The notes below the pieces were generated by a model. It worked only from the letters and a program-made list of their open reading frames with translations, was not told where the DNA came from and did no database searches. Position numbers and translations under genes: made by a program. This document shows, piece by piece, positions 2,250-17,016 of a DNA stretch of 46,681 nucleotides (positions are counted from its first letter, which is position 1; every line of letters begins with the position of its first letter). The stretch is taken from positions 1 to 46,681 of the forward strand of contig JACSRE010000132.1 in the NCBI GenBank assembly GCA_014879945.1. Reading direction: 5' to 3'. This DNA is from Myxococcus sp. GTDB lineage: Bacteria; Myxococcota; Myxococcia; Myxococcales; Myxococcaceae.

Positions 2250-3185
2250 ATGACCCGCGTGTTGTTGCTCGCCGCCCTGCTGTCGGGGCCCGCGCTCGCC
2301 CAGGATGTGTTCATCAGCGCCGACGACGCGCTCAAGCTCGTCGGCAAAGACGGCGTGCGCTTCGTCGCGGCCGACAGCGAAAAGGAGTTCGAGAAGGGCC
2401 ACCTGCCCGGCGCGGTCGAGGCGTTCGCGCACGACCTCCAGCTGCTCGACGACGTGCGCAAGTGCAAGGGCCTGCCGATGTGTGAGGCCACCGCCTTCGA
2501 CTACATCGGCAAGACGCTGGGCATCGACGCGGCGACGCAGGTCGTCGTCTACGACGCGGGCATGGGCGTGAACGCCAGCGGCGCCTGGTTCTTCCTCGCG
2601 CTCTACGGACACAAGAACGTGCGCATCCTCGAAGGCGGGCTGGCGGCGTGGAAGGCGAAGGGCGGCGCCATCGAGACCGGCAAGGGCAAGGCGCCGACCG
2701 CGAAGTCGTTCAAGGGAGAAGTTCAGGCGTCGATGATCGCCACCCGCGCCGACGTCGAGGCCGCCGTGAAGGACCCGTCGAAGGCCCTCATCCTCGACTC
2801 GCGGCACAAGCTCGAGGAGTACACCGGCAAGGAGCTGCTCGCGGGGCTCACCAGCCACGGCAAGGAGCTCACCGTCGCGCGCGGCGGCTTCATTCCCGGC
2901 GCGGTCTTCTCGCCGTGGACCAAGTACGCCGGCAACAAAGACGCAGAGGCCGACAAGCCGACGCTCAAGGACGCGAAGGACCTCCAGAAGCAGCTCGAGA
3001 AGCTGAAGAAGAATGGCTACGAGGCGGGCAAGCCCATCATCACCTACTGCCACGTCGGCCTCGGCCGCGGCTCGTTCCAGTACCTCGCGCTGCTCAAGGC
3101 CGGGCACGCCAACACGAAGCTGTACGTCGGTGGGTGGAGCGAGTGGGGCAACACGCCCGAGCTCCCCCTCGGGACGCAGCAGTGA
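2250..3185 (+). CDS. Exported two-domain rhodanese (thiosulfate sulfurtransferase family)
   Basis: The 311-residue protein begins with a Sec signal peptide (MTRVLLLAALLSGPALA, likely cut after A17), so it acts in the periplasm. Two rhodanese domains follow, about residues 22-140 and 150-308. The N-terminal domain lacks a catalytic cysteine in its loop (VVVYDAG), as is normal for tandem rhodaneses. The C-terminal domain has the loop ITYCHVGLGRG with C267 as the likely persulfide-forming residue. Such enzymes move sulfane sulfur from thiosulfate, polysulfide or a carrier to a thiol acceptor. An insert rich in Lys/Asp (about 225-255) precedes the active-site strand. It is the first gene of the run and has an AAAGGAG ribosome binding site 5 bases before the ATG. 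Confidence 0.93.
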   Translation: MTRVLLLAALLSGPALAQDVFISADDALKLVGKDGVRFVAADSEKEFEKGHLPGAVEAFAHDLQLLDDVRKCKGLPMCEATAFDYIGKTLGIDAATQVVVYDAGMGVNASGAWFFLALYGHKNVRILEGGLAAWKAKGGAIETGKGKAPTAKSFKGEVQASMIATRADVEAAVKDPSKALILDSRHKLEEYTGKELLAGLTSHGKELTVARGGFIPGAVFSPWTKYAGNKDAEADKPTLKDAKDLQKQLEKLKKNGYEAGKPIITYCHVGLGRGSFQYLALLKAGHANTKLYVGGWSEWGNTPELPLGTQQ

Positions 3186-3196
3186 GCGGCGCCACC

Positions 3197-4321
3197 ATGC
3201 GCCCCGTGCTCACCGGCCTGCTCACCGGCGCGGCCTTCGGCCTCATCCTCTACAAGGTGGGCGCGAGCCGCTTCTCGCGCATCATCGGCATGCTGACGCT
3301 GCGCGACACCAAGGTGATGAAGTTCGCCTTCACCGCCATCGCCACCGCCTCGACGCTCTACGGCCTGGCGGCGCTGTTCGGCATCTCGGAGCAGTTCCAC
3401 CTGGTGCCGCGGGTGATGCCGTTCCTCGGCTCGGCGCACGTGCTGGGCGGCGTCATCTTCGGCGTCGCCATGGGCACCACCGGCACCTGCCCGGGCACCT
3501 GCGTGGCCAAGGCAGGCGGGCAGGGCGGCGACAAGCGCTTCGCCACCGCGTTCAGCATCTTCGGGCTGGTGTTGGGCATTCTGGCGTACGCGGCGCTGAA
3601 GACCCCGCTGACCGAGTCGGGCATCATCGCCTCGAACCAGAAGCCCATCACGCTGCACGGCTTGCTCGGCCTGCCCTACGGCGTGGTGGCGCTGGGCTGG
3701 GGCGCGCTCTTCTTCGTCATCACCACCGTCATCGATCGCTTCCTGCCTGAGAAGGTGTTCCCCTCGTCGAAGCCGACGCGCACCCTGATCGACGTGGTTC
3801 GCGGCGAGTGGAGCTGGCTGGCCAGCGGCGTGCTCGGCGGCGTCGTCATCGTGCTGGCGACCGCGCAGGACGGCTACCTGGGCTTCTCGGGCGCGGTGCT
3901 GGCGCTGGTGGGGAGCGCGGCGCACCTCATCGGCCACCCGCTCGACCTGGTGCCGAAGCTGACCGACGAGATTCTCTGGCGCGCGATGCTGATCGTCGGC
4001 GTCTTCCCCGGCGCCTTCCTGGCGATGGCCTTCTCGACGCCGTCCGAGGCCGCCACCCACCCGACGGTGAAGCACACCTTCAGCGTCAAGGCGTCGTCGA
4101 AGGCCCTCGCGGGCGGCTTCGGGCTCGCGCTCGGCGCGATGATCGGCGGCGGCTGCACCACCGGGGCCTTCATCGCGGCGTGGCCGACGCTCTCGGTGGG
4201 CAGCCTCGCCATGGGCGGCGCGTTCTTCATCGCCTCGATGGCCACCTCGAACCTGTTGCTGGTGACCCGGCGCCTCGACTTCGCGAAGGCGCAGGCCATC
4301 GGTGACGAGGTGTACGACTGA
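3197..4321 (+). CDS. YeeE/YedE (TsuA-like) membrane transporter for thiosulfate or related sulfur compounds
   Basis: A 374-residue polytopic membrane protein with about nine to ten hydrophobic segments. It has the two Gly/Cys-rich repeats of the YeeE/YedE family: GTTGTCPGTC with C98 and C102 in the first half, and GGGCTTG with C320 in the second. In TsuA such conserved cysteines form the thiosulfate path through the membrane. The ATG at 3197 is used; an in-frame GTG at 3182, overlapping the rhodanese stop, is an alternative. The stop overlaps the next start by one base. Its place between two rhodanese genes supports a sulfur substrate, but thiosulfate itself is inferred from the family. Confidence 0.88.
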   Translation: MRPVLTGLLTGAAFGLILYKVGASRFSRIIGMLTLRDTKVMKFAFTAIATASTLYGLAALFGISEQFHLVPRVMPFLGSAHVLGGVIFGVAMGTTGTCPGTCVAKAGGQGGDKRFATAFSIFGLVLGILAYAALKTPLTESGIIASNQKPITLHGLLGLPYGVVALGWGALFFVITTVIDRFLPEKVFPSSKPTRTLIDVVRGEWSWLASGVLGGVVIVLATAQDGYLGFSGAVLALVGSAAHLIGHPLDLVPKLTDEILWRAMLIVGVFPGAFLAMAFSTPSEAATHPTVKHTFSVKASSKALAGGFGLALGAMIGGGCTTGAFIAAWPTLSVGSLAMGGAFFIASMATSNLLLVTRRLDFAKAQAIGDEVYD

Positions 4322-4446
4322 TGAAGCGCTCGGTGCGGATCACCTTCCTGGTGTTGATCGCGGCCCTCGCCGCGGGCGTGGTGGCGCTGCGCACGCAGAA
4401 CGCGGCGCGTGAGGCGCGGCTGTCGCAGGCGACGGTGACGCCATGA
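4321..4446 (+). CDS. 41-residue single-span membrane peptide
   Basis: A short ORF reads MKRSVRITFLVLIAALAAG, continues as one hydrophobic helix, and ends with a short Arg/Glu-bearing polar tail. Its ATG overlaps the transporter stop by one base, and its stop sits in an ATGA overlap with the following rhodanese gene. This exact stop-to-start coupling on both sides argues that it is translated. No family is recognised. It could be a small subunit of the YeeE-like transporter or of the anchored rhodanese. It is too short for most automatic gene callers. Confidence 0.6.
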   Translation: MKRSVRITFLVLIAALAAGVVALRTQNAAREARLSQATVTP

Positions 4447-4907
4447 AGCGCGTCGAAGGGCTCCTCTACGTCGGCGCCATGGCCCTGCTCTTCGGGGTGC
4501 TCTTCGTCGAGGGCCGGCGCAGCACCAGCCTCGACGCGCGCGAGGAGCTGACGCCGAAGGCGCTCTACGCCGTGCTGTCGAACCCGCAGGTGAAGGTGCA
4601 GCTGGTCGATCTGCGGCCCTACGACGACGACCACTACCTCGACGTGCATGTGCCTGGCGCGGTGCCCTGGCCCGAGTGCGACCCGGCGAAGGCCCCCGAG
4701 GCGGCGCGGGAGCGCGTCTACCCGTACGTGACGACGGTGCTGATCACCGAAGACGGCAAGAGCCCCGCGCTCGAGAAGTGCCGCGAGACGTTTCGCCACG
4801 CGCGGGTGCTCGCGGGCGGCATGACGGCGTGGAGCGACGCGCTGCTCCCCGAAGACACCGGCGACTACGCGCCCCCGAAGAACGCCGCCGGTGGCGGCTG
4901 TCTCTAA
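4443..4907 (+). CDS. Membrane-anchored rhodanese-like protein without catalytic cysteine, ending in Gly-Gly-Gly-Cys-Leu
   Basis: The 154-residue protein starts with one membrane helix (about residues 6-24) followed by a single rhodanese domain (about 35-138) with the typical VDLRPYDDDHYLDVHVPGA and AGGMTAW motifs. The active-site loop, normally CxxGxRS, reads ITEDGKSP (about 101-108), so the persulfide cysteine is missing; the nearest cysteine is C113, several residues later. The protein ends in a glycine-rich tail, AAGGGCL, with a penultimate cysteine. The domain should face the periplasm. I infer a structural or carrier role, with the tail cysteine possibly bearing sulfur, rather than classical rhodanese catalysis. 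It is coupled by ATGA overlap to the gene before. Confidence 0.85.
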   Translation: MKRVEGLLYVGAMALLFGVLFVEGRRSTSLDAREELTPKALYAVLSNPQVKVQLVDLRPYDDDHYLDVHVPGAVPWPECDPAKAPEAARERVYPYVTTVLITEDGKSPALEKCRETFRHARVLAGGMTAWSDALLPEDTGDYAPPKNAAGGGCL

Positions 4908-4940: not shown

Positions 4941-7814
4941 ATGTCCATCTCACGACGTGACGCGCTCAAGAACCTCGTCGCCGCTGGCGTCGCCGCGAAG
5001 GCCGCGAGCGCGGCCGAGGCGCGCGCCGAGGTGAAGCCGGTGCGCGTCGACGACCCGCGCAAGGCCTACCCCGACACGCAGACCACCGAAGACGCGTACC
5101 GGGCCGAGTTCCGCGCCACGCGCGGCAACGGCGAGGAGCGCGGCTTCGCGTACCACTGCGTCAACTGCCAGGGGAACTGCGCCTTCGAGGTGTGGGCCAA
5201 AGACGGCAAGGTGACGCGCGAGAACCAGTCGGCGGCGTACCCGCAGCTTTCCCCCAGCCTGCCCGACGCCAACCCGCGCGGCTGCAACAAGGGCTCGCAG
5301 CACAGCCAGACGATGTACGAGCCCGACCGGCTGCTCTACCCGATGAAGCGCGTCGGCGAGCGGGGCGCGGGCCAGTGGAAGCGCATCTCGTGGGAAGAGG
5401 CGGCCACCGAGGTGGCCCAGCACCTCTACGACGGGCTGCGTGAGAAGGGCCCGGCGTCGAACTACGTGCACGTCGGCGCGGGCGTGCTGACGGAGGCGCG
5501 CGCGGCCAGCATCAAGCGCCTGGGCACGCTGCTGGGCGCGGTGCGGCCGTACATCGCCAGCTACGTGGGCGACATGTTCCCCGGGGTCAGCGCCGTCTAT
5601 GGCGAGGGCAACATCGGCTGCACCTACGACTTCGTCTTCACCACCAACGTCGCGGTGTTCTGGGGCTGCAACCCGAACACCTCGCGCATCCCCGACGCGC
5701 ACTACCTGTGGGAGGGCAAGTACAACGGCTCGAAGATCATCGTCATCACCCCCGAGTTCAACTCGACGGCGATTCACGCCGACCTCTGGGTGCCGGTGAA
5801 GGCGGGCTACGACGGGCACCTCGCGCTCTCGATCGTGCACCGCATCGTCGAGAAGAAGCTCTACAAGCCCGAGTTCCTCAAGGAGTACACCGACCTGCCG
5901 CTGTTGGTGCGCACCGACACGAAGGCGCTGGTGCGGCTGTCGGACCTCGACCTGACGTCGAAGGACCTCGACGCGAAGTCGGTGGAGCTGTTCGCGAAGC
6001 CCGACCACCCGCACGACTGCTTCCTCACCTTCAACACCCGCAACAAGAAGTTCACCGTGATGCCCGGCAGCGAGGGCTCCAGCGTCGAGACGCTGCGCCT
6101 GTCGGACCTCGACTGGGCCATCGACCCCGCGCTCAACGGCCGGTGGACGGTGACGCTCAAAGACGGCGCCAGGGTGAAGGTCACCACGGCCTTCGAGCTC
6201 TTCAAGCAGGAGCTCGCCGCCTACGCGCCCGAGAAGGTGAAGGGCCTGACCGGCGTGCACCCGGTGGTGGTGGACGAGCTGGCGAAGGACCTCACGCAGG
6301 CGAAGGTGGCGCTCATCACCATGGGCTTCGCCGTCGGCAAGCACTTCAACGGCATGCTCTCGCAGCGCGCCATCGCGGCCTTGACGGCCATGATGGGCAA
6401 GCTGGGCCCCAACGGCGGCATGAACACCGAGAACGAGTGGAACATCACCGGGCTCGAGGGGCTCTCGGGGTTCTCGGGCAAGTACGTGCACCGCTTCGCG
6501 TCGGGCTTCGTCAGCGAGTTCGTGCTGGGCGACGGGCTCGCGAGCGCCGATGCGCTCTACTCCGACGAAGACTTCTTGCGGGGCACCGGCGAGACCAAGG
6601 CCGCGTACACGAAGAAGGTCGAGGCCGCGCTCGAGCAGGGCAAGAACGACGCGCGCTACAAAGAGGGCAAGCCGTACTGGACGACGGTCGAGAACTTCCT
6701 GCTGTTCGCCGACTCGCGCTTCCGCCGCAACAAGGGGCACTACCAGAAGGCCTTCCTCGAGAAGGCGAAGTTCATCGCCTACGGCGACGTGCGCATGAAC
6801 GACTTCGCCGTCTACGCCGACCTGCTGCTGCCCTGTAAGACGCCCTACGAGTGCTGGGACCTGCGCACCAACCCCGGCTACCACCGCTACGCCAACATCG
6901 CGTACCCCTCGCCCACCCTGAAGCCGGTCGGTGAGGCGAAGAGCGAGTGGGAGATCGCCACCCTCGTGGTCGAGAAGCTCGAGGCGCTGGCGAAGGCCCG
7001 GTTCCAGAAGACGAAGGACCAGAAGGACCTGGTCATCGCCGACCCCACGCACACCCAGCACGGCGTGCGGCGCCTCGACGAGCTGGTGAAGGAGTTCACC
7101 AGGGACGGCACGCTGCGCACCGACAAGGACGCGGTGGAGTACGCCCTCGAGCACGTCGACCAGTTCAAGCCCAACACCACCAAGACGATGTACGAGCGCG
7201 GCGGCTTCCTGCAGCTCAACGAGAAGGCCGGCAAGAGCTCTCCGCTGTACGCCGACAAGCCCTACAACACCTTCGAGAACCAGCTGTTCCTGCACCAGCG
7301 CTTCGACACGCTCACCGGGCGGCTGACCTTCTACGTCGACCACCCCGCGTGGATCGCCTCGAACGCCCACGTGCCCACCGCGAAGCAGCCGATCCGGCCC
7401 AGCCGGCACCCCTTCGTGCTGATGACCCCGCACGCGCGCTGGTCGATTCATTCGACGTACAAGACCTCGCCCCTGCTGCTGCGCCTGCAGCGCGGCCAGC
7501 CCGTCATCATGGTGAACCCCGAGGTCGCGAAGAAGCGCGGCATCGCCGATGGCGACCAGGTGAAGATGTTCAACGAGCTCGGCGAGGTGCGGCTGATGGC
7601 CAAGCTCTCGCCCGCGGTGCCCTACGACGCGCTGGTGATGGAGCACGGCTGGGAGCCCTTCATGTACCCCGGCAAGAAGGGCCACAACCTGCTGGTGGGC
7701 GACATGCTCAACCTGCTCGAGCTGTCTGACGGCTGGGGCCACCTCAAGTTCGGCACCAACTGGGACGGCAACCAGCACGCCTACGAAACCACCGTCGAGC
7801 TCGCCAAGGCCTGA
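4941..7814 (+). CDS. Type II DMSO-reductase-family molybdoenzyme, catalytic (alpha) subunit, Tat-exported
   Basis: The 957-residue protein has a twin-arginine signal (SISRRDALKNL) and binds Mo-bisPGD plus one FeS cluster. The FS0 motif is H72-x3-C76-x3-C80-x34-C115, the spacing known from NarG, with an extra C73 beside the histidine. The stretch NPRGCNKG and the segment PMKRVGERG...WKRISWEEA are typical of the Ddh/Ser/Clr/Ebd/Pcr group of type II enzymes. D211 in SYVGDMFPGV is the likely aspartate Mo ligand. The following beta and haem gamma subunits confirm type II. Known members act on dimethyl sulfide, selenate, (per)chlorate, nitrate or hydrocarbons; the substrate here is unknown, and the surrounding rhodaneses and YeeE transporter suggest a sulfur compound. 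It is shorter than NarG or NxrA (over 1100 residues) and no NarI is present. Confidence 0.92.
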   Translation: MSISRRDALKNLVAAGVAAKAASAAEARAEVKPVRVDDPRKAYPDTQTTEDAYRAEFRATRGNGEERGFAYHCVNCQGNCAFEVWAKDGKVTRENQSAAYPQLSPSLPDANPRGCNKGSQHSQTMYEPDRLLYPMKRVGERGAGQWKRISWEEAATEVAQHLYDGLREKGPASNYVHVGAGVLTEARAASIKRLGTLLGAVRPYIASYVGDMFPGVSAVYGEGNIGCTYDFVFTTNVAVFWGCNPNTSRIPDAHYLWEGKYNGSKIIVITPEFNSTAIHADLWVPVKAGYDGHLALSIVHRIVEKKLYKPEFLKEYTDLPLLVRTDTKALVRLSDLDLTSKDLDAKSVELFAKPDHPHDCFLTFNTRNKKFTVMPGSEGSSVETLRLSDLDWAIDPALNGRWTVTLKDGARVKVTTAFELFKQELAAYAPEKVKGLTGVHPVVVDELAKDLTQAKVALITMGFAVGKHFNGMLSQRAIAALTAMMGKLGPNGGMNTENEWNITGLEGLSGFSGKYVHRFASGFVSEFVLGDGLASADALYSDEDFLRGTGETKAAYTKKVEAALEQGKNDARYKEGKPYWTTVENFLLFADSRFRRNKGHYQKAFLEKAKFIAYGDVRMNDFAVYADLLLPCKTPYECWDLRTNPGYHRYANIAYPSPTLKPVGEAKSEWEIATLVVEKLEALAKARFQKTKDQKDLVIADPTHTQHGVRRLDELVKEFTRDGTLRTDKDAVEYALEHVDQFKPNTTKTMYERGGFLQLNEKAGKSSPLYADKPYNTFENQLFLHQRFDTLTGRLTFYVDHPAWIASNAHVPTAKQPIRPSRHPFVLMTPHARWSIHSTYKTSPLLLRLQRGQPVIMVNPEVAKKRGIADGDQVKMFNELGEVRLMAKLSPAVPYDALVMEHGWEPFMYPGKKGHNLLVGDMLNLLELSDGWGHLKFGTNWDGNQHAYETTVELAKA

Positions 7815-7825
7815 AAGGAAACTCC

Positions 7826-8839
7826 ATGTCGAAGCGCCAGCTCGCGATGGTGATGGACCTCAACAAGTGCATCGGCTGCCAGACGTGCACCGTGGCCTGC
7901 AAGACGCAGTGGACCAACCGCAACGGCCGCGAGGGCATGTACTGGAACAACGTCGAGACGAAGCCGGGCATGGGCTTCCCGAAGAAGTGGGAGGAGCAGG
8001 GCGGCGGCTTCGACGCCAACGGCAACCTCAACGAGGGCGTGGTGCCCTCGCGCTACAACGACTACGGCGTTCCCTGGGACTACAACGCGGCCGAGATCAT
8101 GAAGGCCGCCGAGTTCAAGGCGCAGACCGAGCCCCGCGGCGGCCCCAACTGGGACGAAGACGTCGGCGCCGGCGACTTCCCCAACTCGTACTTCTTCTAC
8201 CTGCCGCGCATCTGCAACCACTGCTCGAACCCGAGCTGCCTGGCGGCGTGCCCGCGCGAGGCCATCTTCAAGCGCGACCAGGACGGCATCGTGCTGGTCG
8301 ATCTCGCCCGCTGCGAAGGCAACCGCATGTGCATCGCGGCGTGCCCGTACAAGAAGATCTATTTCAACCCGAAGCTCTCGAAGTCCGAGAAGTGCATCTT
8401 CTGCTTCCCGCGCATCGAGCAGGGCCTGCCGCCGGCGTGCGCCGATCAGTGCGTGGGCCGCATTCGGTTCGTGGGCTACCTCGACGACGTCGACGGCCAG
8501 GTGCACAAGCTGGTGAACGTGCACAAGGTCGCGCTGCCGCTGCACCCCGAGTACGGCACGCAGGCCAACGTCTACTACGTGCCGCCGATGTCGGGCCCGC
8601 GCCGCTTCGACAAGACGGGCAAGCCCATCGAGGGCAGCGAGCGCATTCCCCGGGCGTACCTCGAGAGCCTGTTCGGGCCCGCGGTGCACGACGTGCTCGA
8701 GCGCATGAACGCCGAGGTCGAGAAGCGCAAGACGGGGGCGCCCTCGGAGCTGCTCGACCTGCTCATCGCCTACAAGCACTCCGACATGTTCCGCCTGGGC
8801 AAGCCGCGCCCGGGCTTCAAGCTGCCGGTGATGAAGTGA
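7826..8839 (+). CDS. Type II molybdoenzyme iron-sulfur (beta) subunit
   Basis: The 337-residue NarH/DdhB/EbdB-like electron-transfer subunit has four cysteine groups: C15/C18/C21/C25; C130/C133/C138/C142; C163/N166/C169/C173; and C190/C193/C205/C209. In the third group the second ligand is Asn166 (CEGNRMC) where NarH has Trp, which implies a [3Fe-4S] cluster, as expected for type II enzymes, plus three [4Fe-4S]. It has no signal peptide, so it is probably exported by hitchhiking on the Tat-targeted alpha subunit. It starts 11 bases after alpha with an AAAGGAA ribosome binding site, and its stop overlaps the gamma start. It should pass electrons between FS0 of alpha and the haem of gamma. Confidence 0.94.
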   Translation: MSKRQLAMVMDLNKCIGCQTCTVACKTQWTNRNGREGMYWNNVETKPGMGFPKKWEEQGGGFDANGNLNEGVVPSRYNDYGVPWDYNAAEIMKAAEFKAQTEPRGGPNWDEDVGAGDFPNSYFFYLPRICNHCSNPSCLAACPREAIFKRDQDGIVLVDLARCEGNRMCIAACPYKKIYFNPKLSKSEKCIFCFPRIEQGLPPACADQCVGRIRFVGYLDDVDGQVHKLVNVHKVALPLHPEYGTQANVYYVPPMSGPRRFDKTGKPIEGSERIPRAYLESLFGPAVHDVLERMNAEVEKRKTGAPSELLDLLIAYKHSDMFRLGKPRPGFKLPVMK

Positions 8840-9990
8840 GCGCCCGCCTCATCGCGCTCCTGGTGGTGGCGCTCGCGCCCGGCGCGTGGGCGAGCGACGC
8901 CTTCTTCGCCACCGAGGTGGTCGACGCTGTGGCGCTCCCGCAGGCGCCCAGCGGCGTCGCCGACCCTGCGTGGGCCCGCGTGCCGGGCAAGGCGTTCACC
9001 CTCGCGCCCCAACGCACCCTGCGCCTCAACGACAAGCTGGCCAACGAGGCCCTCGCCGCCCCCGGAGTCTCCGAGGTGCTGGTGCGCGCCGCGCACGTCG
9101 GCCCCGCGCTGGTGGTGCTGCTCGAGTGGAGCGACGGGGCCGCCGACCTCGTGCGCGACGACGAGGTGAACACCTACGCCGACTCCGCCGCGGTGCAGGT
9201 GCCGGTGTCGTTCGGGCCGGGGCTGCGGTTGCCCGCCATCTCGATGGGCGACGAGGCGCAGCCGGTGCGCCTGTGGCTGCAGCGGGCGACGAAGACGGGC
9301 TCGCAGCTGAGCGCGCTGATGGCCGCCGGGTTCGGGAGCTCCACCCGTCAGGGCCCGGCCACGCCGCGCGAGGGCACCATGGCCTGGGAGGCGGCCGCCA
9401 GGCGCTGGCGCGCGCAGTTCTCGGTGCCGCTCGACGCGAAGGCCGCGCTGGTGCCGATGTCGTTCGCGGTGTGGGACGGCGCCCGCCAGGAGCGCGCGGG
9501 CAACAAGCGGCTCTCGTCGTGGCGCTTCGTGCGCGTGCCGGGTCGAACCCCCGACGCGGCCTACGTGAAGGCGATGGCCTGGGGCTTCTCGCCGGGCGAC
9601 CTGGGCGACCCGCAGAAGGGCAAGGTGCTGGCCGAGGCGGTCTGCGTGTCGTGCCACCACCTGCCCGGGCGCGCCATCGCCCCCGTCGGCCTCGCGCCCA
9701 GCCTCGTCGACATCGGCGTCATCGCGACGCCGGGCTACCTGCGCGAGAGCATCGTCTCTCCGAGCGAGGTGGTGCTGTACGGGCCCAACCCCAACCAGCA
9801 CTACGACAAGAGCCAGGCCAGAGACCCGAACGGCGCGTACCCCAACAACGACGGCTTCCGCTGGTTCACCGTCGGCGCCGACGGCAAGCGCACCTCGAAG
9901 ATGCCCTCGTTCGCGGGCTTCTCGGCCGAGCAGCTCGGCGACTTCGTCGCCTACCTCAAGACCCTCGATGGGAAAGGAAGCACCCCATGA
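8836..9990 (+). CDS. Type II molybdoenzyme haem (gamma) subunit fused to a C-terminal cytochrome c domain
   Basis: The 384-residue protein starts at a GTG overlapping the beta stop (GTGA). A signal peptide (about 1-19, ending GAWAS) sends it to the periplasm. Residues about 25-245 form an ethylbenzene-dehydrogenase-type haem b domain; M137 (AISMGDEA) and K224 (GNKRLSSW) are candidate axial ligands, since DdhC and EbdC use Met/Lys. Residues about 255-380 are a class I cytochrome c domain with C270-x2-C273-H274 and a distal methionine candidate in SKMPSF. Most gamma subunits are haem b only. A haem b plus haem c arrangement is, to my knowledge, reported for NxrC of anammox-type nitrite oxidoreductase. 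The fusion would link the enzyme directly to soluble or membrane cytochromes c. Confidence 0.9.
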   Translation: MSARLIALLVVALAPGAWASDAFFATEVVDAVALPQAPSGVADPAWARVPGKAFTLAPQRTLRLNDKLANEALAAPGVSEVLVRAAHVGPALVVLLEWSDGAADLVRDDEVNTYADSAAVQVPVSFGPGLRLPAISMGDEAQPVRLWLQRATKTGSQLSALMAAGFGSSTRQGPATPREGTMAWEAAARRWRAQFSVPLDAKAALVPMSFAVWDGARQERAGNKRLSSWRFVRVPGRTPDAAYVKAMAWGFSPGDLGDPQKGKVLAEAVCVSCHHLPGRAIAPVGLAPSLVDIGVIATPGYLRESIVSPSEVVLYGPNPNQHYDKSQARDPNGAYPNNDGFRWFTVGADGKRTSKMPSFAGFSAEQLGDFVAYLKTLDGKGSTP

Positions 9991-10391
9991 ACACCCTCCG
10001 ACACCTGACGCTGTGCACGCTGGTCCTCTCGAGCGCGGCCTTCGCCGCCGAGCCGGGAGAAGAGGTCGAGCTCTCGAGCGCGCCCGTCACCGGCCTCTCG
10101 TGCGCGAAGAAGGCCATCGAGACGGGCAAGCTCGACCTGCTCTCGACGTGCCCGCTCGAAGAGGCTACGCGCGGCATCGTCGTCTTCGACGTCGCCGAGA
10201 AGCAGTACTACCAGCTCGACGCGAAGAGCATTCGCACCTCGGAGCTCGAGCGGGCCTACGGGGGCGGCTCCATCGACGTCACCGGCACCGTCAAGGCGGT
10301 GGACAAGACGTCGGGCCTCGTCACCGTGAAGGTGAGCGAGTTCCGCGTCACGCCCAAGCCCAAGGCCGGCGCCTTCAAGGGCTGCCTGTAG
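9987..10391 (+). CDS. Small secreted protein ending in Lys-Gly-Cys-Leu; possible sulfur or metal carrier
   Basis: The 134-residue protein has a Sec signal peptide (about 1-20, ending FAAE) and a mature body that looks like a small beta-barrel, possibly OB-like (segments VFDVAEKQYYQLD and IDVTGTVKAVD). It has two early cysteines (near residues 39 and 54) and a penultimate cysteine in the tail AFKGCL. I do not recognise the family. It begins with an ATGA overlap of the gamma stop and a GGAAAGGAAG ribosome binding site, so it belongs with the type II enzyme. The anchored rhodanese at 4443 also ends in GCL, and the sulfur carrier DsrC ends in a penultimate cysteine; a carrier role is inferred from this only. 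Confidence 0.75.
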   Translation: MNTLRHLTLCTLVLSSAAFAAEPGEEVELSSAPVTGLSCAKKAIETGKLDLLSTCPLEEATRGIVVFDVAEKQYYQLDAKSIRTSELERAYGGGSIDVTGTVKAVDKTSGLVTVKVSEFRVTPKPKAGAFKGCL

Positions 10392-10445: not shown

Positions 10446-11081
10446 ATGCTGCTCGGCTTCCTCGTCGACCTCAACAACTGCGTCGGCTGCAAAGCGTGCG
10501 AGGTGGCCTGCAAGGCCGAGAACGAGGTGCCGGTGAACAGCTGGCGCCTGCGGGTGAAGTACGTGGACTCGGGCGTGTACCCCGAGGTGAAGCGCTCCTT
10601 CACCCCGATGCGGTGCAACCACTGCGAGAACGCGCCCTGCGAGAAGGTGTGCCCCGTCAGCGCGCTGCACTACCTGCCCAACGGCATCGTCAACATCGAC
10701 AAGGACCGCTGCATCGGCTGCGCGGCCTGCATGATGGCGTGCCCGTACGGGGCCATCTACATGGACCCCGAGACCAACACGGCCGACAAGTGCACCTACT
10801 GCGCGCACCGCGTCGAGGGCGGGCTCGAGCCGGCGTGCGTGGTGGCGTGCCCGACCGAGGCCAACATCTTCGGCGACCTCGACGAGCCCGGCTCGAAGAT
10901 CAGCCAGTACATCGCCGACCACCGCGACGTGCGCGTGCGAAAGCCCGAGAAGGGCACCCGGCCCAAGCACTTCTACACCGGCGGCGGGGCCAGCCACCTC
11001 GAGCCGCTGGCCAGCAAGCGCGAAGAGGGCCCGGGGCTCTTCAACCGCATCGGCAAGCTCGACAAGGTCGGGGGAGACTGA
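10446..11081 (+). CDS. Four-cluster ferredoxin-like subunit of a PsrABC-type molybdoenzyme
   Basis: The 211-residue protein has four complete cysteine groups: CVGCKACEVAC (C12-C22), CNHCENAPCEKVC, CIGCAACMMAC and CTYC...CVVAC, giving four [4Fe-4S] clusters in the DmsB/PsrB/NrfC arrangement. It has no signal peptide and would travel with its Tat-exported partner. It should carry electrons between the large subunit (11994) and the quinone-linked membrane subunit (11084), whose gene follows within two bases. The order FeS, membrane, catalytic is reversed from the common ABC order. A 54-base gap separates it from the preceding gene. Confidence 0.93.
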   Translation: MLLGFLVDLNNCVGCKACEVACKAENEVPVNSWRLRVKYVDSGVYPEVKRSFTPMRCNHCENAPCEKVCPVSALHYLPNGIVNIDKDRCIGCAACMMACPYGAIYMDPETNTADKCTYCAHRVEGGLEPACVVACPTEANIFGDLDEPGSKISQYIADHRDVRVRKPEKGTRPKHFYTGGGASHLEPLASKREEGPGLFNRIGKLDKVGGD

Positions 11082-11083
11082 AC

Positions 11084-11983
11084 ATGGGACCGCTGACGGC
11101 CGACGCGCCGATGCTGCAGGCCTCGACGGTGACGCTCGACGTGCTGCACACCGGCGTCCTCTGGGGCTGGTACGTGACGATGAACATGTGGGCCAAGAGC
11201 GTCGGCACCGGCGTGCTCCTGGTCGGCGTGGCGATGATGCACCGCTACGGCAACAGTCGCGCCTTCTACCGCCGGTGGATGCCGCTGGTCGGCTTCGTCT
11301 TCATTCAGGTGACGCTGCTCTTCACCGTGCTCGACCTGCACCAGATGTTCAGGTTCTGGCACATCTTCGTCTTCCCCCACCGCACCTCGGCCATCAACAT
11401 CGGCGCGTGGCTGCTGACGCTCTACACGGGGCTGCTGGGGGTGATGATCGTCGCCTGGTGGAAGAAGCACGAGCGGCTCTACGACCGCCTGCTGCTGCCC
11501 ACCGTGGTGGTGGCCTTCTTCGCCACCATCTACACCGCGGCGCTGCTGGGGCAGGCGAACGCGCGCGAGCTGTGGAGCATGCCCACCGAGACCGCCCAGA
11601 TGCTGTTGGCCGCGACGCTGGCCGGGAGCGCCGCCTTCCTGCTGCTCGGCGCGCCCTCTGACGAAGAGTCGGTGTCGCTGGGCTGGGTGCTGTCGCTGTC
11701 GGCGAGCGTCGCCCTCGTCATCTTCATCGGCGAGGTGGTGTTCGCGCCCGGCAAGTCCGAAGAGGCCGAGTACGTCATTCACACCCTGCTGTCGGGCCGC
11801 CTGGGCGTGCTCTTCGTCAGCGGGCTCGTCATCGGCTTCGTGGTGCCCGCCTCGCTGGGCTTCTTCTCGGCGAAGGTGAACCGGCCGGTGGCGCTCCGCT
11901 TCGCCGCGGTGGCCGGGCTCGCCGGCTTGTGGATGGTGAAGCACGCGTGGCTCATCGCGCCCCAGCTGCTGCCGCTCTCGTGA
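11084..11983 (+). CDS. NrfD/PsrC-type quinone-interacting membrane subunit
   Basis: The 299-residue integral membrane protein has about eight hydrophobic helices and the NrfD/PsrC look: an N-terminal GWYVTMNMWAKSVGTGVLL helix, charged loops and no haem-binding CxxCH. Such subunits anchor periplasmic FeS/molybdoenzyme modules and exchange electrons with menaquinone or ubiquinone. The acidic/basic pairs in helices (DLHQMFRFWH, FIGEVVFAPG) may belong to the quinone or proton path. It starts two bases after the FeS gene stop (AACATG) and ends 10 bases before the large subunit, so the three form one unit. Confidence 0.92.
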   Translation: MGPLTADAPMLQASTVTLDVLHTGVLWGWYVTMNMWAKSVGTGVLLVGVAMMHRYGNSRAFYRRWMPLVGFVFIQVTLLFTVLDLHQMFRFWHIFVFPHRTSAINIGAWLLTLYTGLLGVMIVAWWKKHERLYDRLLLPTVVVAFFATIYTAALLGQANARELWSMPTETAQMLLAATLAGSAAFLLLGAPSDEESVSLGWVLSLSASVALVIFIGEVVFAPGKSEEAEYVIHTLLSGRLGVLFVSGLVIGFVVPASLGFFSAKVNRPVALRFAAVAGLAGLWMVKHAWLIAPQLLPLS

Positions 11984-11993
11984 GGACGAACCG

Positions 11994-14900
11994 ATGACCC
12001 TGAACCGCCGCGACTTCCTCAAGGCCGCCGCCGTCACCAGCGGCGCCACCGCCGTCGCCGTGGGCGCGGTGCGCTCCTTCATTCCCGAGGCCCGCGCGGG
12101 CCAGCCGCTGCCGGCCACCTTCGACACCGTGCCCGTCGTCGACGGCAACTTCGCCACCTACCCGCCGTTCGAGAAGTGGGGCGGGTGGCGCGAGCTGAGC
12201 GGAGACGACTGGAAGCGCGGCGGCATCGCGCGCGCCGACATCAAGGTGCACGAGCACGTGCTGGTGCCCACCATCTGCAACAACTGCGAGGCCGCGTGCG
12301 GGCTCACCGCGTGGGTGGACAAAGAGACCCTGGTGGTGCGCAAGTTCATGGGCAACCCGCTCCACACCGGCAGCCTCGGCCGCAACTGCGCCAAGGGCTA
12401 CGCGGTGCAGAGCCAGATGTACGACCCCGACCGCATTCCTTTCCCGCTCAAGCGCGCGCCCGGCTCGAAGCGCGGTGACGGCAAGTGGGTGCGCACCACG
12501 TGGGACGAGGCCCTGGCCACCATCGGCGCGAAGATGCGCCAGACGCTCCAGCGCGGCGACGAGGCCTCGAAGAAGGCCATCATGCACCACGTCGGTCGGC
12601 CCAACGAGTCGGGCTTCACGCCGCGGGTGTGGGCGAGCCTGGGCCAGGACTGTCAGAGCTCGCACACCAACATCTGCTCGGCCGGCGCGCGCATGTCGAG
12701 CCTGCTGTGGGTCAACGACGATCGCAGCGCGCCCGACTGGCAGAACTCGCGCCTCATCTTCCTCCAGAGCTCTCACGCCGCCGACGCCGGCCACTACTTC
12801 CAGCAGTCGGCGGGGCAGATCGCGAAGGCCCGCCAGAAGGGCGCGAAGCTGGTGGTGATGGACCCGCGCCTGTCGAACTCGGCGGGCATCGCCGACCTGT
12901 GGATACCGGCGTGGCCCGGCACCGAGTCGGCCATCTACCTGGCGCTGGCGGCGCGGCTGCTCAAAGAGAAGCGCTACGACCGCGACTTCGTGCGCGAGTG
13001 GTGGAACTGGCACGACCTGATGGACGACGCCGACGAGCTCAAGGTGCTGCTCGACCGGGGCCTGCTCAAGGCGCTCCCGAAGGGCAACACCTTCGAAGAC
13101 TTCGAGGCGCTGCTGCTCGACCTCTACGGCGACTACACGCTCGAGTGGGCCGCCGAAGAGGCGCGCGTGCCGGTGGCGAAGCTCGAGAAGCTGTACGAGT
13201 ACCTCCTCTTCGCCGGCAACCGCATCACCTCGTTCTTCTGGAGAGCCTCGGGCTCGGGCAACCGCGGCGGGTGGATGTCGTCGGGCCGCACCGGCATCTT
13301 CCTCCTCGCGCTCACCGGCAACTTCAACGGCGTCGGCGCGCTCGGTCAGGAAGAGGGCCGCATGATCGCCCTGGCCGGCAAAGGCGGCGGGGCCTGCGCC
13401 GCCGAGAAGCCCCCGAAGGTCGACGTGTGGAACGACCTCTCGTACCCACCCGAGTGGCCGCTGGCCAGCTACGAGCTCTCGTACCTGCTGCCGCACCTGC
13501 TCTCGGACACCGCGTGGCAGGAGAAGTGGCGCAGCAAGGGCCTGACGGTGCCGCAGAAGCTCTCGGTGTGGATCCCGCGGCAGTACAACCCGGTGTGGAT
13601 CAACCCCGACGGCTTCCGGTGGATCGAGGTGCTGCGCGACGAGGCGAAGCTCGAGCTCACCTTCAACCCGTCGCCCACCTGGTCCGAGACCAACTGGTTC
13701 ATGGACTACATCCTCCCGGTGGGCCTCTCGGGGGAGCGGCACGATCAACACTCCGAGCCCACCAACACCGAGGCGTGGATTGGCTTTCGGCAGCCGGTGC
13801 TGCGCGTCGCGCTCGAGAAGTCGGGCTGGGAGCCGAAGGACCCGGCGCGCGCCACCCTCGAGGCGCACGTCAAGGCCGGCCTGGGCGAGGTGTGGGAAGA
13901 GAACGAGCTGTGGGTGAACCTGCTGTTCCACCACGTCGACCCCGACGGCAGCCTGGGCGTGCGGAGGTTCTGGGAGAGCCGCGAGAACCCCGGCAAGCCC
14001 GTCACCATCGCCGAGTACTACGACGCCGCCTTCGGCACGCTCCCGGGGCTCAAGGCCGCGGCGCTCGAGGCCGCGAAGCAGAAGGCCGCGAACGCGAAGA
14101 CCGCGCTCGAGCAGAAGCACGCCGCCCACGCCCTGAAGTACCCGAACTACGATCTGCTCCGTGACCGCGGCGCGTGGACCGAGCGCGTCGACGTCTACGC
14201 GCAGCACGAAGAAGAGCTGCACGTCGACCACGAGAAGAAGTCGGTGCGGGTGAAGGAGCCGCAGTTCTTCGGCGCGATGGTCGAGGTGCCGCTGGCGACG
14301 CTCAAGACCGACGAGCGCACCCGCCAGCTCTACCTCGACACCAGCGAGGGCCGGCAGAACGTGGGCGTGAAGCTCGCCGACGGCACCCTCGCGTCGGGCT
14401 TCACCACGCCCAGCCGCAAGATGGAGTTCTACGCGCGCTGGTTCAAGGACTGGGGCTGGGCCGAGTACGCCATTCCCATCTACCCGCGCACGCAGGCCCA
14501 GCGCGACGCGATGGTGCACGTCGTCTCGCAGGTGCACCACCAGTACATGACCGAGCCGAACGCCTTCGCGCTCAACCCCATCTTCCGGTTGCCGTACAAC
14601 ATCCACACCCGCTCGGTGAACTCGAAGTGGCTGATGGAGATCAGCCAGAACCACAACCCGGTGTGGATCAACACGAAGGACGCCGAGCGCCTCGGCTTCA
14701 AGCGCGGGCAGCCGGTCAAGGTGCGCGTCGTCGACACCATGTCGAAGCTCGAGTCGGGCTTCTTCGTGGCCATGGCCATGCCCACCGAGGGCGTCGCGCC
14801 CGGCACGCTCGCCTGCTCGCACCACGCCGGCCGGTGGCGCGTGGTGAAGTCGGTGGACGTCGGCTTCGAGAAGCCGCTGGGCATCATGGGCCTCGGCGCG

Positions 14901-15335
14901 CCGGTCGCGGCCCTGAAGGAAGAGGGCACCCGCCGCGCGCTCACCAACGTCGAGGGCATCTCGAAGCTGAAGGTGACGCCGACGCAGGAGTTCGGGCCGC
15001 GCGGGTGGCCCTTCGCCGACTTCAACAAGGACCTCGACAACATCAGCTGGGATGGGCTGTCGGGCGTCTGGCAGAACTCGGTGCACCACCCGCACCCCGA
15101 CCCCATCTCGGGCATGCACTGCTGGCACCAGAAGGTGCTGCTCGAGGCGCCGGGGCCGGGCGAGAAGATTGGTGACCTGCAGGTCGACATCGCCGCCACC
15201 TTCAAGACGTACCAGGTGTGGCGCGACGACCTGACGCGCCCGGCGCCGGGGCCCAACGGCCTGCGCCGCCCCGAGCACCTCAAGCGGCCGTGGGTGCCGC
15301 TGACGCGCGCGGCGTACAAGATGCCGACCTCGTGA
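11994..15335 (+). CDS. PsrA/PhsA-like molybdopterin oxidoreductase large subunit, Tat-exported
   Basis: The 1113-residue protein has a twin-arginine signal (LNRRDFLKAAA). An N-terminal [4Fe-4S] motif, C95-x2-C98-x3-C102-x29-C132, is followed by the GKWVRTTWDEAL segment typical of the DMSO reductase superfamily. In SSHTNICSAGAR, C228 is the best candidate Mo ligand, as in PsrA/PhsA-type enzymes, though S229 is adjacent. Polysulfide, thiosulfate, tetrathionate, sulfite and arsenic enzymes belong to this wide group, and the substrate is not fixed by sequence. The length exceeds PsrA/PhsA (about 760) and SoeA (about 960). Part of the excess is a charged, coiled-coil-like insert around residues 680-800 rich in Ala/Lys/Glu. 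The FeS and NrfD subunits are encoded just upstream. Its stop overlaps the chaperone start by one base. Confidence 0.9.
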   Translation: MTLNRRDFLKAAAVTSGATAVAVGAVRSFIPEARAGQPLPATFDTVPVVDGNFATYPPFEKWGGWRELSGDDWKRGGIARADIKVHEHVLVPTICNNCEAACGLTAWVDKETLVVRKFMGNPLHTGSLGRNCAKGYAVQSQMYDPDRIPFPLKRAPGSKRGDGKWVRTTWDEALATIGAKMRQTLQRGDEASKKAIMHHVGRPNESGFTPRVWASLGQDCQSSHTNICSAGARMSSLLWVNDDRSAPDWQNSRLIFLQSSHAADAGHYFQQSAGQIAKARQKGAKLVVMDPRLSNSAGIADLWIPAWPGTESAIYLALAARLLKEKRYDRDFVREWWNWHDLMDDADELKVLLDRGLLKALPKGNTFEDFEALLLDLYGDYTLEWAAEEARVPVAKLEKLYEYLLFAGNRITSFFWRASGSGNRGGWMSSGRTGIFLLALTGNFNGVGALGQEEGRMIALAGKGGGACAAEKPPKVDVWNDLSYPPEWPLASYELSYLLPHLLSDTAWQEKWRSKGLTVPQKLSVWIPRQYNPVWINPDGFRWIEVLRDEAKLELTFNPSPTWSETNWFMDYILPVGLSGERHDQHSEPTNTEAWIGFRQPVLRVALEKSGWEPKDPARATLEAHVKAGLGEVWEENELWVNLLFHHVDPDGSLGVRRFWESRENPGKPVTIAEYYDAAFGTLPGLKAAALEAAKQKAANAKTALEQKHAAHALKYPNYDLLRDRGAWTERVDVYAQHEEELHVDHEKKSVRVKEPQFFGAMVEVPLATLKTDERTRQLYLDTSEGRQNVGVKLADGTLASGFTTPSRKMEFYARWFKDWGWAEYAIPIYPRTQAQRDAMVHVVSQVHHQYMTEPNAFALNPIFRLPYNIHTRSVNSKWLMEISQNHNPVWINTKDAERLGFKRGQPVKVRVVDTMSKLESGFFVAMAMPTEGVAPGTLACSHHAGRWRVVKSVDVGFEKPLGIMGLGAPVAALKEEGTRRALTNVEGISKLKVTPTQEFGPRGWPFADFNKDLDNISWDGLSGVWQNSVHHPHPDPISGMHCWHQKVLLEAPGPGEKIGDLQVDIAATFKTYQVWRDDLTRPAPGPNGLRRPEHLKRPWVPLTRAAYKMPTS

Positions 15336-15925
15336 TGGAACCGCGCGCCCGGGCCCGCCTGTACACGTTCTTCTCCCGGCTCTTCGTGCGGGAGCTCGAT
15401 GACGCCTTCGTCGAGGTGCTCCGCGGGGAGCTCGGTGCGGCGCTCCTCCCCACGTTCTCGGCCTCGGCCGAGCTCGACCTGCTGTCCCCCGCGGCCCGGC
15501 GGCAGGCCACCTTCGACGTAGACTTCGCGCACCTCACGATGGTGAACGTGGTGCCCTACGAGTCGTTCTACCGGCGCGACGACGCGATGATCGAGTCGGG
15601 CGGCGCCAACCCGCTGGCCACCTTCCTCACGAAGTACGGCTTCGAGGCCGACCTCGCGGCGGCGCGCTCCTTGTCGCCCGACCACCTCGGCATCGAGCTC
15701 GAGCTGATGGCCGTGCTGTGCGCCCGCGAGGCCGACGCCGACGCGCCAGCGCTCGCCGCCCAGGTGAGGCGGGTCGAGCTCGAGCTGCTGAGCGAGCACC
15801 TGCTCTCGTGGGCCCCGGTGTACCTGTTGGCGGTCAGGCGCAACGCCCGCACCGGGCTCTACGCCGAGGCCGCCGACGCGCTCCTGCACCTGCTCCACCA
15901 GCACCACGAGGCGCTCGCCGAATGA
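15335..15925 (+). CDS. TorD/DmsD/NarJ-family chaperone for molybdoenzyme maturation
   Basis: The 196-residue, all-helical soluble protein has a TorD-type N-terminus (ARLYTFFSRLFV) and the conserved central motif DHLGIELELMAVLC. These chaperones bind Tat signal peptides of molybdoenzymes in the cytoplasm and hold the apoenzyme until cofactor is inserted. The gene is coupled by TGATG to the large subunit at 11994, its most likely client. It is the only such chaperone in the run, so it may also serve the type II alpha subunit. Its stop is in an ATGA overlap with the polyferredoxin gene. Confidence 0.88.
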   Translation: MEPRARARLYTFFSRLFVRELDDAFVEVLRGELGAALLPTFSASAELDLLSPAARRQATFDVDFAHLTMVNVVPYESFYRRDDAMIESGGANPLATFLTKYGFEADLAAARSLSPDHLGIELELMAVLCAREADADAPALAAQVRRVELELLSEHLLSWAPVYLLAVRRNARTGLYAEAADALLHLLHQHHEALAE

Positions 15926-17016
15926 CGCTCGCGCTCGACTGGGCCGCCTGCGTTCGAGCGCGCTCCCGCGCCGCGGCGTGCAGGGCCTGCGTCGACGCCT
16001 GCCCCACGCACGCCATCAGCCTGCTGGGCCCGCGCGAGTCGGTGAAGGTCGACCTCGCCGCCTGCACCGCCTGCGGCCAGTGCCAGCCGGTGTGCCCGAC
16101 GGGCGCGTTCAGCGGCGTCGTCGAGGTGGGCGCGTTCGTCGCGGCGGCCGGCCCCGCGCTCGCGTGCACCGCGTCGTTCTGCCTGGCGTCGCTCTCGTCG
16201 GAGGACTTCGTCACGCTCGCGCTGAAGCACGGCGCCGTCACCGTCGATGGCGCTGGCTGCCAGGCGTGCAAGGCGACCCGGCCGGTGGTGGCCGAGCGCA
16301 TCGAGCAGGCCAACGCCTTCGTGTCGGCGGCGGGCTTCGAGGCGCGCCTGGTGGTGTCGGTGAGGCCCAGGGCGCGTGAGGCCGAGGCGCCGCCCGCGCC
16401 CACGGCGAAGGCAGAGAACTCCCGGCGCGCGTTGCTGCGCCGCTTCGTGCCGGGCCTCGTCGAGCAGCCCGCCGTGAAGCCGCCGCTCGCGCTGGCGCCG
16501 GTCGGGGTGGGCGTCGTCGAGCCCGCGCGGCTCAAGGCCCGGCCGCTCCCCGAGCGCCGCGTCCGGCTGCTCGAGGCGCTCGCGCAGGCGACCGCGGTGA
16601 GGGCGCCCGACGCGCTCGACGCGGCCCAGCTCGACTTCTCGTCCTCCAAGGCGCTCAACCTCACCACCTGCACGGGCTGCCTGCAGTGCGTGAGCGCCTG
16701 CCCCACCGGCGCCCTCACGGCCTCGCGCGCCCAGGACGCGGTGCACTTCGACGCCTCGCGCTGCGTGAAGTGCCGAACCTGTCACGACGCCTGCGAGCCC
16801 GGCGCGCTCACCGTCAGCAGGCGCTTCGAGACGGCCGACTTCGTCGCCGCCCGCGTCGTCGAGCTGGGCCGCTTCGTGGTGAAGGACTGCGGGGAGTGCG
16901 GCGCGCGCTTCAAGTACGACGGCGGCGACGCGCTGTGCCCGCGGTGCGTGGGCCACGACGACGAGGCCCGCGCCCTCCACGGCCTGCCGCCCAGAGACCC
17001 GGGAGCGTCGGCGTGA
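15922..17016 (+). CDS. Polyferredoxin with four 4Fe-4S motifs and a C-terminal zinc-ribbon-like end
   Basis: The 364-residue protein carries two ferredoxin-type pairs. The N-terminal pair is CRACVDACP and CTACGQCQPVCP. The C-terminal pair is CTGCLQCVSACP and CVKCRTCHDACEP. A linker of about 200 residues, with further cysteines (CTASFC, CQAC) and a Pro/Ala-rich part, lies between them. The end has CGECG...CPRC, which looks like a zinc ribbon or rubredoxin-like knuckle. There is no signal peptide, so it is probably cytoplasmic. It may supply or take electrons during maturation or link the respiratory enzymes to cytoplasmic donors; this is inferred from position between the chaperone and the AroE-like gene, both with 4-base overlaps. 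Confidence 0.82.
   Translation: MTLALDWAACVRARSRAAACRACVDACPTHAISLLGPRESVKVDLAACTACGQCQPVCPTGAFSGVVEVGAFVAAAGPALACTASFCLASLSSEDFVTLALKHGAVTVDGAGCQACKATRPVVAERIEQANAFVSAAGFEARLVVSVRPRAREAEAPPAPTAKAENSRRALLRRFVPGLVEQPAVKPPLALAPVGVGVVEPARLKARPLPERRVRLLEALAQATAVRAPDALDAAQLDFSSSKALNLTTCTGCLQCVSACPTGALTASRAQDAVHFDASRCVKCRTCHDACEPGALTVSRRFETADFVAARVVELGRFVVKDCGECGARFKYDGGDALCPRCVGHDDEARALHGLPPRDPGASA

Follow-up and report, generated by a model that had tools for sequence, protein, structure and literature searches.

A rhodanese-fold protein lacking the catalytic cysteine but carrying a conserved penultimate tail cysteine in a Myxococcota gene cassette, and its possible role as a sulfur carrier

Introduction

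To our knowledge, few kinds of protein-borne sulfur carrier operate in sulfur energy metabolism: SoxYZ, DsrC, TusA/DsrE and the lipoate-binding proteins. The molybdenum enzyme family that concerns us here is known for action on nitrate, chlorate, selenate, dimethyl sulfide and ethylbenzene. DsrC and SoxY bear their sulfur on a mobile arm. In A. vinosum DsrC the flexible C-terminus holds the penultimate Cys111, the sole residue that becomes persulfurated, and the persulfurated cysteine is proposed to enter the active site of DsrAB (PMC3397948). In SoxY the substrate is borne on a cysteine of a swinging arm (PMC5336275).

Here we describe a gene cassette of Myxococcota encoding two unrelated proteins, RhdGGGCL and GCL2, that both end in Gly-Cys-Leu, RhdGGGCL having a rhodanese fold without the catalytic cysteine. 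The rhodanese fold, the subunits of type II DMSO-reductase-family enzymes, YeeE/YedE transporters and arms with a penultimate cysteine are each known individually; for their combination in this cassette, or for a rhodanese with its cysteine on a tail and not in the pocket, we found no description in the open-access literature.

Gene content and organization of the cassette

The window, the whole stretch of Myxococcus sp. DNA analysed, is 46,681 nucleotides long and contains a cassette of eight genes, all on the forward strand: sulfurtransferase, YeeE/YedE, a peptide of about 40 aa, RhdGGGCL, alpha, beta, gamma and GCL2. Gene order is identical in all loci as far as the contigs reach. Moreover, relatives of alpha (E ≤ 1e-60) are found in the same 11 of 195 Myxococcota genomes as RhdGGGCL, and in none without it.

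The first gene (2250–3185) encodes a secreted two-domain sulfurtransferase of the 3-mercaptopyruvate sulfurtransferase/rhodanese type (Pfam Rhodanese, 95 bits; relatives in the PDB), with the loop CHVGLGRG and an active-site cysteine, Cys267, that is invariant (10/10). This protein has an additional invariant pair, C72/C78, in the sequence KCKGLPMC (residues 72–78, window 2463–2485). It is followed by a YeeE/YedE-type sulfur transporter (Sulf_transp; 3194–4321; PF04143, 86 bits) with invariant C102, C106 and C324 (numbered from 3185). Between this gene and RhdGGGCL, all 11 loci have a reading frame for a single-helix membrane peptide of about 40 aa (4321–4446); a 56-aa single-helix membrane peptide has been reported in a sulfur-oxidation gene region of H. 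denitrificans (PMC11582611).

Downstream of RhdGGGCL lie the subunits of a type II DMSO-reductase-family enzyme. Alpha (4941–7814; 957 aa; Mo-bisMGD) has a twin-arginine-like signal and PDB relatives in PcrA and EbdA, and matches TIGR03479 over its full length with 790 bits, below the cut-off of 985, which places it outside the curated subfamily. It is distant from all type II enzymes compared (34% identity to ClrA; also PcrA and EbdA). In the candidate Mo-ligand region Cys227 and Cys243 are invariant, as is the motif GCT[YFW]DF (residues 226–231, window 5616–5640), whose candidate Mo-ligand Asp is one residue off that of PcrA/EbdA (xxADW-type motif) in an ungapped alignment; the offset may stem from the alignment or from a true difference at the metal. 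Beta (7826–8839) is an iron-sulfur subunit (TIGR03478, 505 bits, above the cut-off of 480.7), and gamma (8836–9990) joins a haem b domain of the ethylbenzene-dehydrogenase type to a cytochrome c domain (PF09459, PF00034, TIGR03477).

Unlike clrABDC, the cassette has no mapped TorD-like gene, and sulfurtransferases such as FdhD are known to mature some Mo enzymes. The sulfurtransferase, RhdGGGCL and GCL2 might then sulfurate the cofactor of the Mo enzyme or chaperone it, replacing the TorD-like chaperone of systems such as ClrABDC. However, the twin-arginine-like signal of alpha implies that the cofactor is in place before export, while the sulfurtransferase and GCL2 bear secretion signals, and a role in maturation seems very unlikely.

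The RhdGGGCL protein

RhdGGGCL (4443–4907; 154 aa) is a membrane-anchored protein. A single membrane helix lies at its N-terminus, the rhodanese domain follows, and the tail closes with APPKNAAGGGCL. The positive-inside signal for this topology is clear in most orthologues, but not in all. Residues 38–132 match the whole Pfam PF00581 (Rhodanese) profile with 30.1 bits (E 6.9e-7; cut-off 22.2), and an AlphaFold2 model computed from the alignment of 11 orthologues (mean pLDDT 79) has a confident rhodanese core, for which Foldseek returns the YgaP rhodanese domain 5hbl as the top match in the PDB (probability 1.00, E 6.5e-6).

The loop departs from that of active rhodaneses. Alignment with active single-domain rhodaneses of sibling loci sets TVLITEDGKSP of RhdGGGCL opposite VVVYCRSGGRS, and the catalytic position is therefore Thr102 (4746–4748). 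Active rhodaneses have a loop cysteine (CxxGxR/T); T, A, S or G occupies its place in all 11 orthologues. The preliminary description had correctly reported the loss of this cysteine but had named Glu/Asp as its replacement, whereas Glu103-Asp104 are the residues next to it. Nor are all other rhodanese landmarks kept, as was claimed, because the loop Arg of CxxGxR is gone too; D-x-R, H-x-PGA, the loop Gly105 and GG-xxxW are retained.

The C-terminal arm is Pro/Gly-rich and flexible, residues 143–154 being predicted as disordered (pLDDT < 50 in the AlphaFold2 model), and terminates in Gly-Gly-Gly-Cys-Leu. A GGGC tail with a C-terminal cysteine had been described; the tail is there, and a leucine follows, so that Cys153 (4899–4901) is penultimate. 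Two other cysteines, Cys79 (4677–4679) and Cys113 (4779–4781), are like Cys153 invariant (11/11), and may form a disulfide, as may the pair C39/C55 of GCL2.

Conservation of RhdGGGCL

A search of 195 Myxococcota genomes (E ≤ 1e-6) identified RhdGGGCL orthologues in 11, from 7 genera in four family groups. The loop cysteine is absent, and the AGGGCL end, Cys79, Cys113 and Cys153 are present, in every one of them, including the most distant, which retains AGGGCL at 41% identity to the window protein. Close relatives with an intact loop and no tail, which might have revealed a local change, were sought in this comparison and none was found. The loss of the cysteine together with the tail in all 11 orthologues therefore shows that RhdGGGCL is not a local pseudogene-like change. 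Among six orthologues pairwise dN/dS is 0.20–0.57, with synonymous variation inside the tail codons, and this value below 1 together with the conservation rules out local decay. A plasmid search for RhdGGGCL gave no match, and a contig scan for relatives with narrow sequence patterns returned myxobacterial contigs only.

A second protein with a Gly-Cys-Leu terminus

The last gene of the cassette encodes GCL2 (9987–10391), a secreted protein of 134 aa with a penultimate Cys133, which the preliminary description had overlooked. Its C-terminus is GAFKGCL, once GSFKGCL and once GGFKGCL, with FKGCL invariant in nine orthologues; these come from 9 of the 11 cassette genomes, the contigs of the remaining two stopping within gamma. 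GCL2 matches no Pfam or NCBIfam model and no rhodanese. The fold of its structure model is weakly OB-like, in that Foldseek matches are mostly to OB-fold proteins, none of them below E 0.001. RhdGGGCL and GCL2 are thus unrelated proteins encoded in one operon that share an invariant penultimate cysteine in Gly-Cys-Leu. Invariance of the tails in 11 (RhdGGGCL) and 9 (GCL2) orthologues rules out chance, and in crude ORF calls across the 11 loci only these two proteins end in GC followed by L, I, V, M or F.

Two explanations other than sulfur transfer bear on these tails. The first is that the tail cysteines are structural: disulfides could join the two proteins, or tie both to a common partner, or the cysteines could be metal or haem ligands, the two proteins then being accessory subunits of the Mo complex that carry no sulfur. 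The tail cysteine of RhdGGGCL could indeed sit in a disulfide or be bound to metal, each protein has two further invariant cysteines (C79 and C113; C39 and C55), and the last three residues are identical, as if one partner recognised both. However, a Gly-rich disordered arm with a penultimate cysteine matches DsrC, and genes for a sulfurtransferase and a sulfur transporter are invariable neighbours, and we regard a structural role as unlikely, if still to be reckoned with. The second is that RhdGGGCL is an ordinary degenerate rhodanese serving as a binding domain, with the tail as a signal for sorting or for recognition by a protease. Rhodanese domains that have lost catalysis and serve in binding are known, for example in TBC1D23, but the tail has neither a known sorting-signal architecture nor a hydrophobic C-terminal helix, and an invariant cysteine in two unrelated tails is hard to square with such a signal. 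This explanation we find scarcely credible.

Genomic context

In some loci genes with a predicted role in sulfur oxidation lie close to the cassette. The order is GCL2, SorA-like sulfite dehydrogenase, cytochrome c and Mrp in one genome (G183), and GCL2, Mrp, SorA-like and cytochrome c in another (G186). In a third (G021) the genes for the SorA-like protein, cytochrome c and Mrp are about 10 kb away, and a persulfide-dioxygenase-like gene adjoins GCL2; such genes also occur near the cassette in G108 and G109. Every SorA-like match scores under the curated threshold for the SorA model, and 7 of the 11 cassette genomes have no SorA match, which counts against the oxidative scheme proposed below.

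Genes for an iron-sulfur protein, NrfD and a Mo-oxidoreductase come directly after GCL2 in the window genome and in two congeneric genomes. In the window (10446–17016) this second set comprises an Fe-S protein, NrfD, a Tat-type alpha of 1113 aa, a TorD-like protein and a ferredoxin, and is related to TtrABC (tetrathionate reductase)/PhsA, below all curated cut-offs. Also beside the cassette region is a gene (19462–21234) for a secreted protein in which the haem motif CxxCH occurs several times. A further genome, G184 (L067), in which no full cassette was found, has a SorA-like match in several pieces (about 3500–4400) and a partial GCL2-like match to residues 7–59 (about 8850–9010), which are possibly remnants.

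The neighbouring sulfite dehydrogenase and dioxygenase genes and the gamma–cytochrome c fusion lead us to prefer oxidation to the level of sulfite as the function of the Mo enzyme. Operation in the reductive direction must be weighed against it, with arm-borne sulfane sulfur, or else thiosulfate, polysulfide or tetrathionate, as electron acceptor and SorA only disposing of the sulfite set free when thiosulfate is split. Type II enzymes include chlorate, perchlorate, selenate and nitrate reductases, which counts against a dehydrogenase; most characterised enzymes of the family compared here are reductases, and haem-b gamma subunits serve both directions. Furthermore, cleavage of thiosulfate by the sulfurtransferase alone can yield sulfite, and SorA is therefore no proof that alpha oxidises sulfur. 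Nonetheless, the co-occurrence of sulfite dehydrogenase and persulfide dioxygenase fits an oxidising pathway, and the cytochrome c fused to gamma likewise speaks against reduction, a direction that we consider distinctly unlikely.

A proposed role in sulfur transfer

The best reading of the sequences is that RhdGGGCL and GCL2 may be swinging-arm sulfur carriers similar to DsrC and SoxY. That the GGGCL and KGCL tails would carry sulfur is suggested chiefly by the penultimate-cysteine tails of DsrC and the arm of SoxY. RhdGGGCL would then be a rhodanese-fold sulfur carrier and not a sulfurtransferase, with an arm that is loaded and serves the Mo enzyme; as an explanation of the whole, we give this about an even chance of being correct.

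In such a scheme, the secreted sulfurtransferase would take sulfane sulfur, from thiosulfate or from persulfide or polysulfide, onto Cys267, and Cys153 of RhdGGGCL, Cys133 of GCL2, or both, would accept it as a persulfide. The rhodanese fold and membrane anchor of RhdGGGCL would provide the scaffold for a flexible arm that carries the persulfide into the type II DMSO-reductase-family enzyme through its funnel. Alpha would oxidise the carrier-bound sulfur towards sulfonate or sulfite – the Mo enzyme being probably a sulfane-sulfur dehydrogenase – and the electrons would pass through the iron-sulfur clusters to haem b, haem c and periplasmic cytochromes. Where the cassette of a genome includes a SorA-type sulfite dehydrogenase, that enzyme would receive the sulfite. 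The sequences themselves establish the loss of the loop cysteine, the conserved tail, the fold, the linkage in the operon and across genomes, the presence of GCL2 and the resemblance to DsrC tails; the periplasmic side, a persulfide-bearing arm, its docking partners, the action of the Mo enzyme as a dehydrogenase, its substrate and the direction are what we infer.

The preliminary description had suggested that the sulfur site moved from the pocket to a mobile arm. Its mobile arm is consistent with the predicted flexibility and the DsrC-like tail, and the partner sulfurtransferase has kept its own cysteine. That sulfur resides on the tail cysteine, and where this would dock, we likewise infer; the arm is less likely to enter RhdGGGCL's own empty pocket than to visit the Mo enzyme and the partner sulfurtransferase. 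As to the order of events, no orthologue with both loop cysteine and tail occurs among the 11 found in 195 Myxococcota genomes, and a move of the site is one conceivable history.

Taken at its broadest, the cassette may encode an undescribed periplasmic system of sulfur oxidation in Myxococcota, with a sulfane-sulfur dehydrogenase of the type II DMSO-reductase family and two DsrC-like penultimate-cysteine carriers of unrelated folds, one of them a cysteine-less rhodanese; this we advance tentatively, judging it somewhat more probably wrong than right. The arrangement suggests that an enzyme may receive its sulfur from a protein arm in a manner that would be new. If true, the Gly-Cys-hydrophobic arm arose on at least three folds, protein-bound sulfur is an added type of substrate for the Mo-enzyme family, and there is a testable answer to how myxobacteria without Sox genes might oxidise sulfane sulfur.

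Comparison with known systems

The closest rhodaneses are the YgaP-like single-domain proteins, which have the fold and most sequence landmarks in common with RhdGGGCL but differ in their loop Cys and loop Arg; RhdGGGCL has a cysteine on the tail instead. The Mo enzyme resembles ClrABDC, PcrABCD, EbdABCD and SerABDC in the architecture of alpha, beta and gamma. In contrast to these, the cassette alpha falls below the subfamily cut-off, gamma is fused to cytochrome c, there is no TorD between beta and gamma, and the operon includes sulfur-transfer genes and the two GCL proteins. With soxT/YTD clusters the cassette shares a YeeE/YedE transporter adjoining sulfur-transfer genes; it differs in having no mapped TusA or DsrE partner and in its linkage to a Mo enzyme. 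The MOLY and YTD clusters were rejected as a match for the cassette, their gene content being different.

The proposed scheme resembles SoxYZ/SoxCD, in which sulfane sulfur sits on the swinging-arm cysteine of a carrier and is oxidised there by a Mo enzyme that delivers the electrons to cytochrome c (PMC5336275). SoxCD, however, is of the sulfite-oxidase type and the cassette enzyme of the DMSO-reductase type. Neither GCL protein is a true SoxY, as judged by profile (PF13501) and fold, and the RhdGGGCL tail is GGGCL, not GGCGG. SoxY was not found in any of the 11 cassette genomes, and the same search matched 9 sibling genomes; 9 matches among the other 184 genomes and 0 among the 11 are what chance alone would give, and the difference is not significant. 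We therefore dropped the absence as a signal, though it is compatible with an alternative to Sox. (A SoxZ search matched no genome and no control and was given no weight; the SoxY search was used instead.) Both the Sox and the Dsr system need fewer carriers than the two of the cassette, which counts against the carrier reading.

DsrC/TusE (PF04358) offers the nearest parallel to the tails. The window genome has a DsrC-family protein elsewhere than in the cassette (G000:C344) that ends GIPKPAGCL, and DsrC-family proteins of other genomes end VKKPVGCI (G182) and LPKPTGCV (G060). In G000:C344 (L069) the DsrC-family domain (about 5445–5726) lies at the C-terminus of a long open reading frame. Common to both groups are a flexible C-terminal arm, a Pro/Lys-rich spacer and a penultimate cysteine after Gly (GCL, GCI, GCV). 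RhdGGGCL and GCL2 are not true DsrC proteins: they have no PF04358 match, their folds are rhodanese or OB-like, their gene company is another, and their partner is a Mo enzyme and not the sirohaem DsrAB. By the features tested, RhdGGGCL stands outside active rhodaneses, DsrC and SoxY, and if our reading holds it works like DsrC or SoxY.
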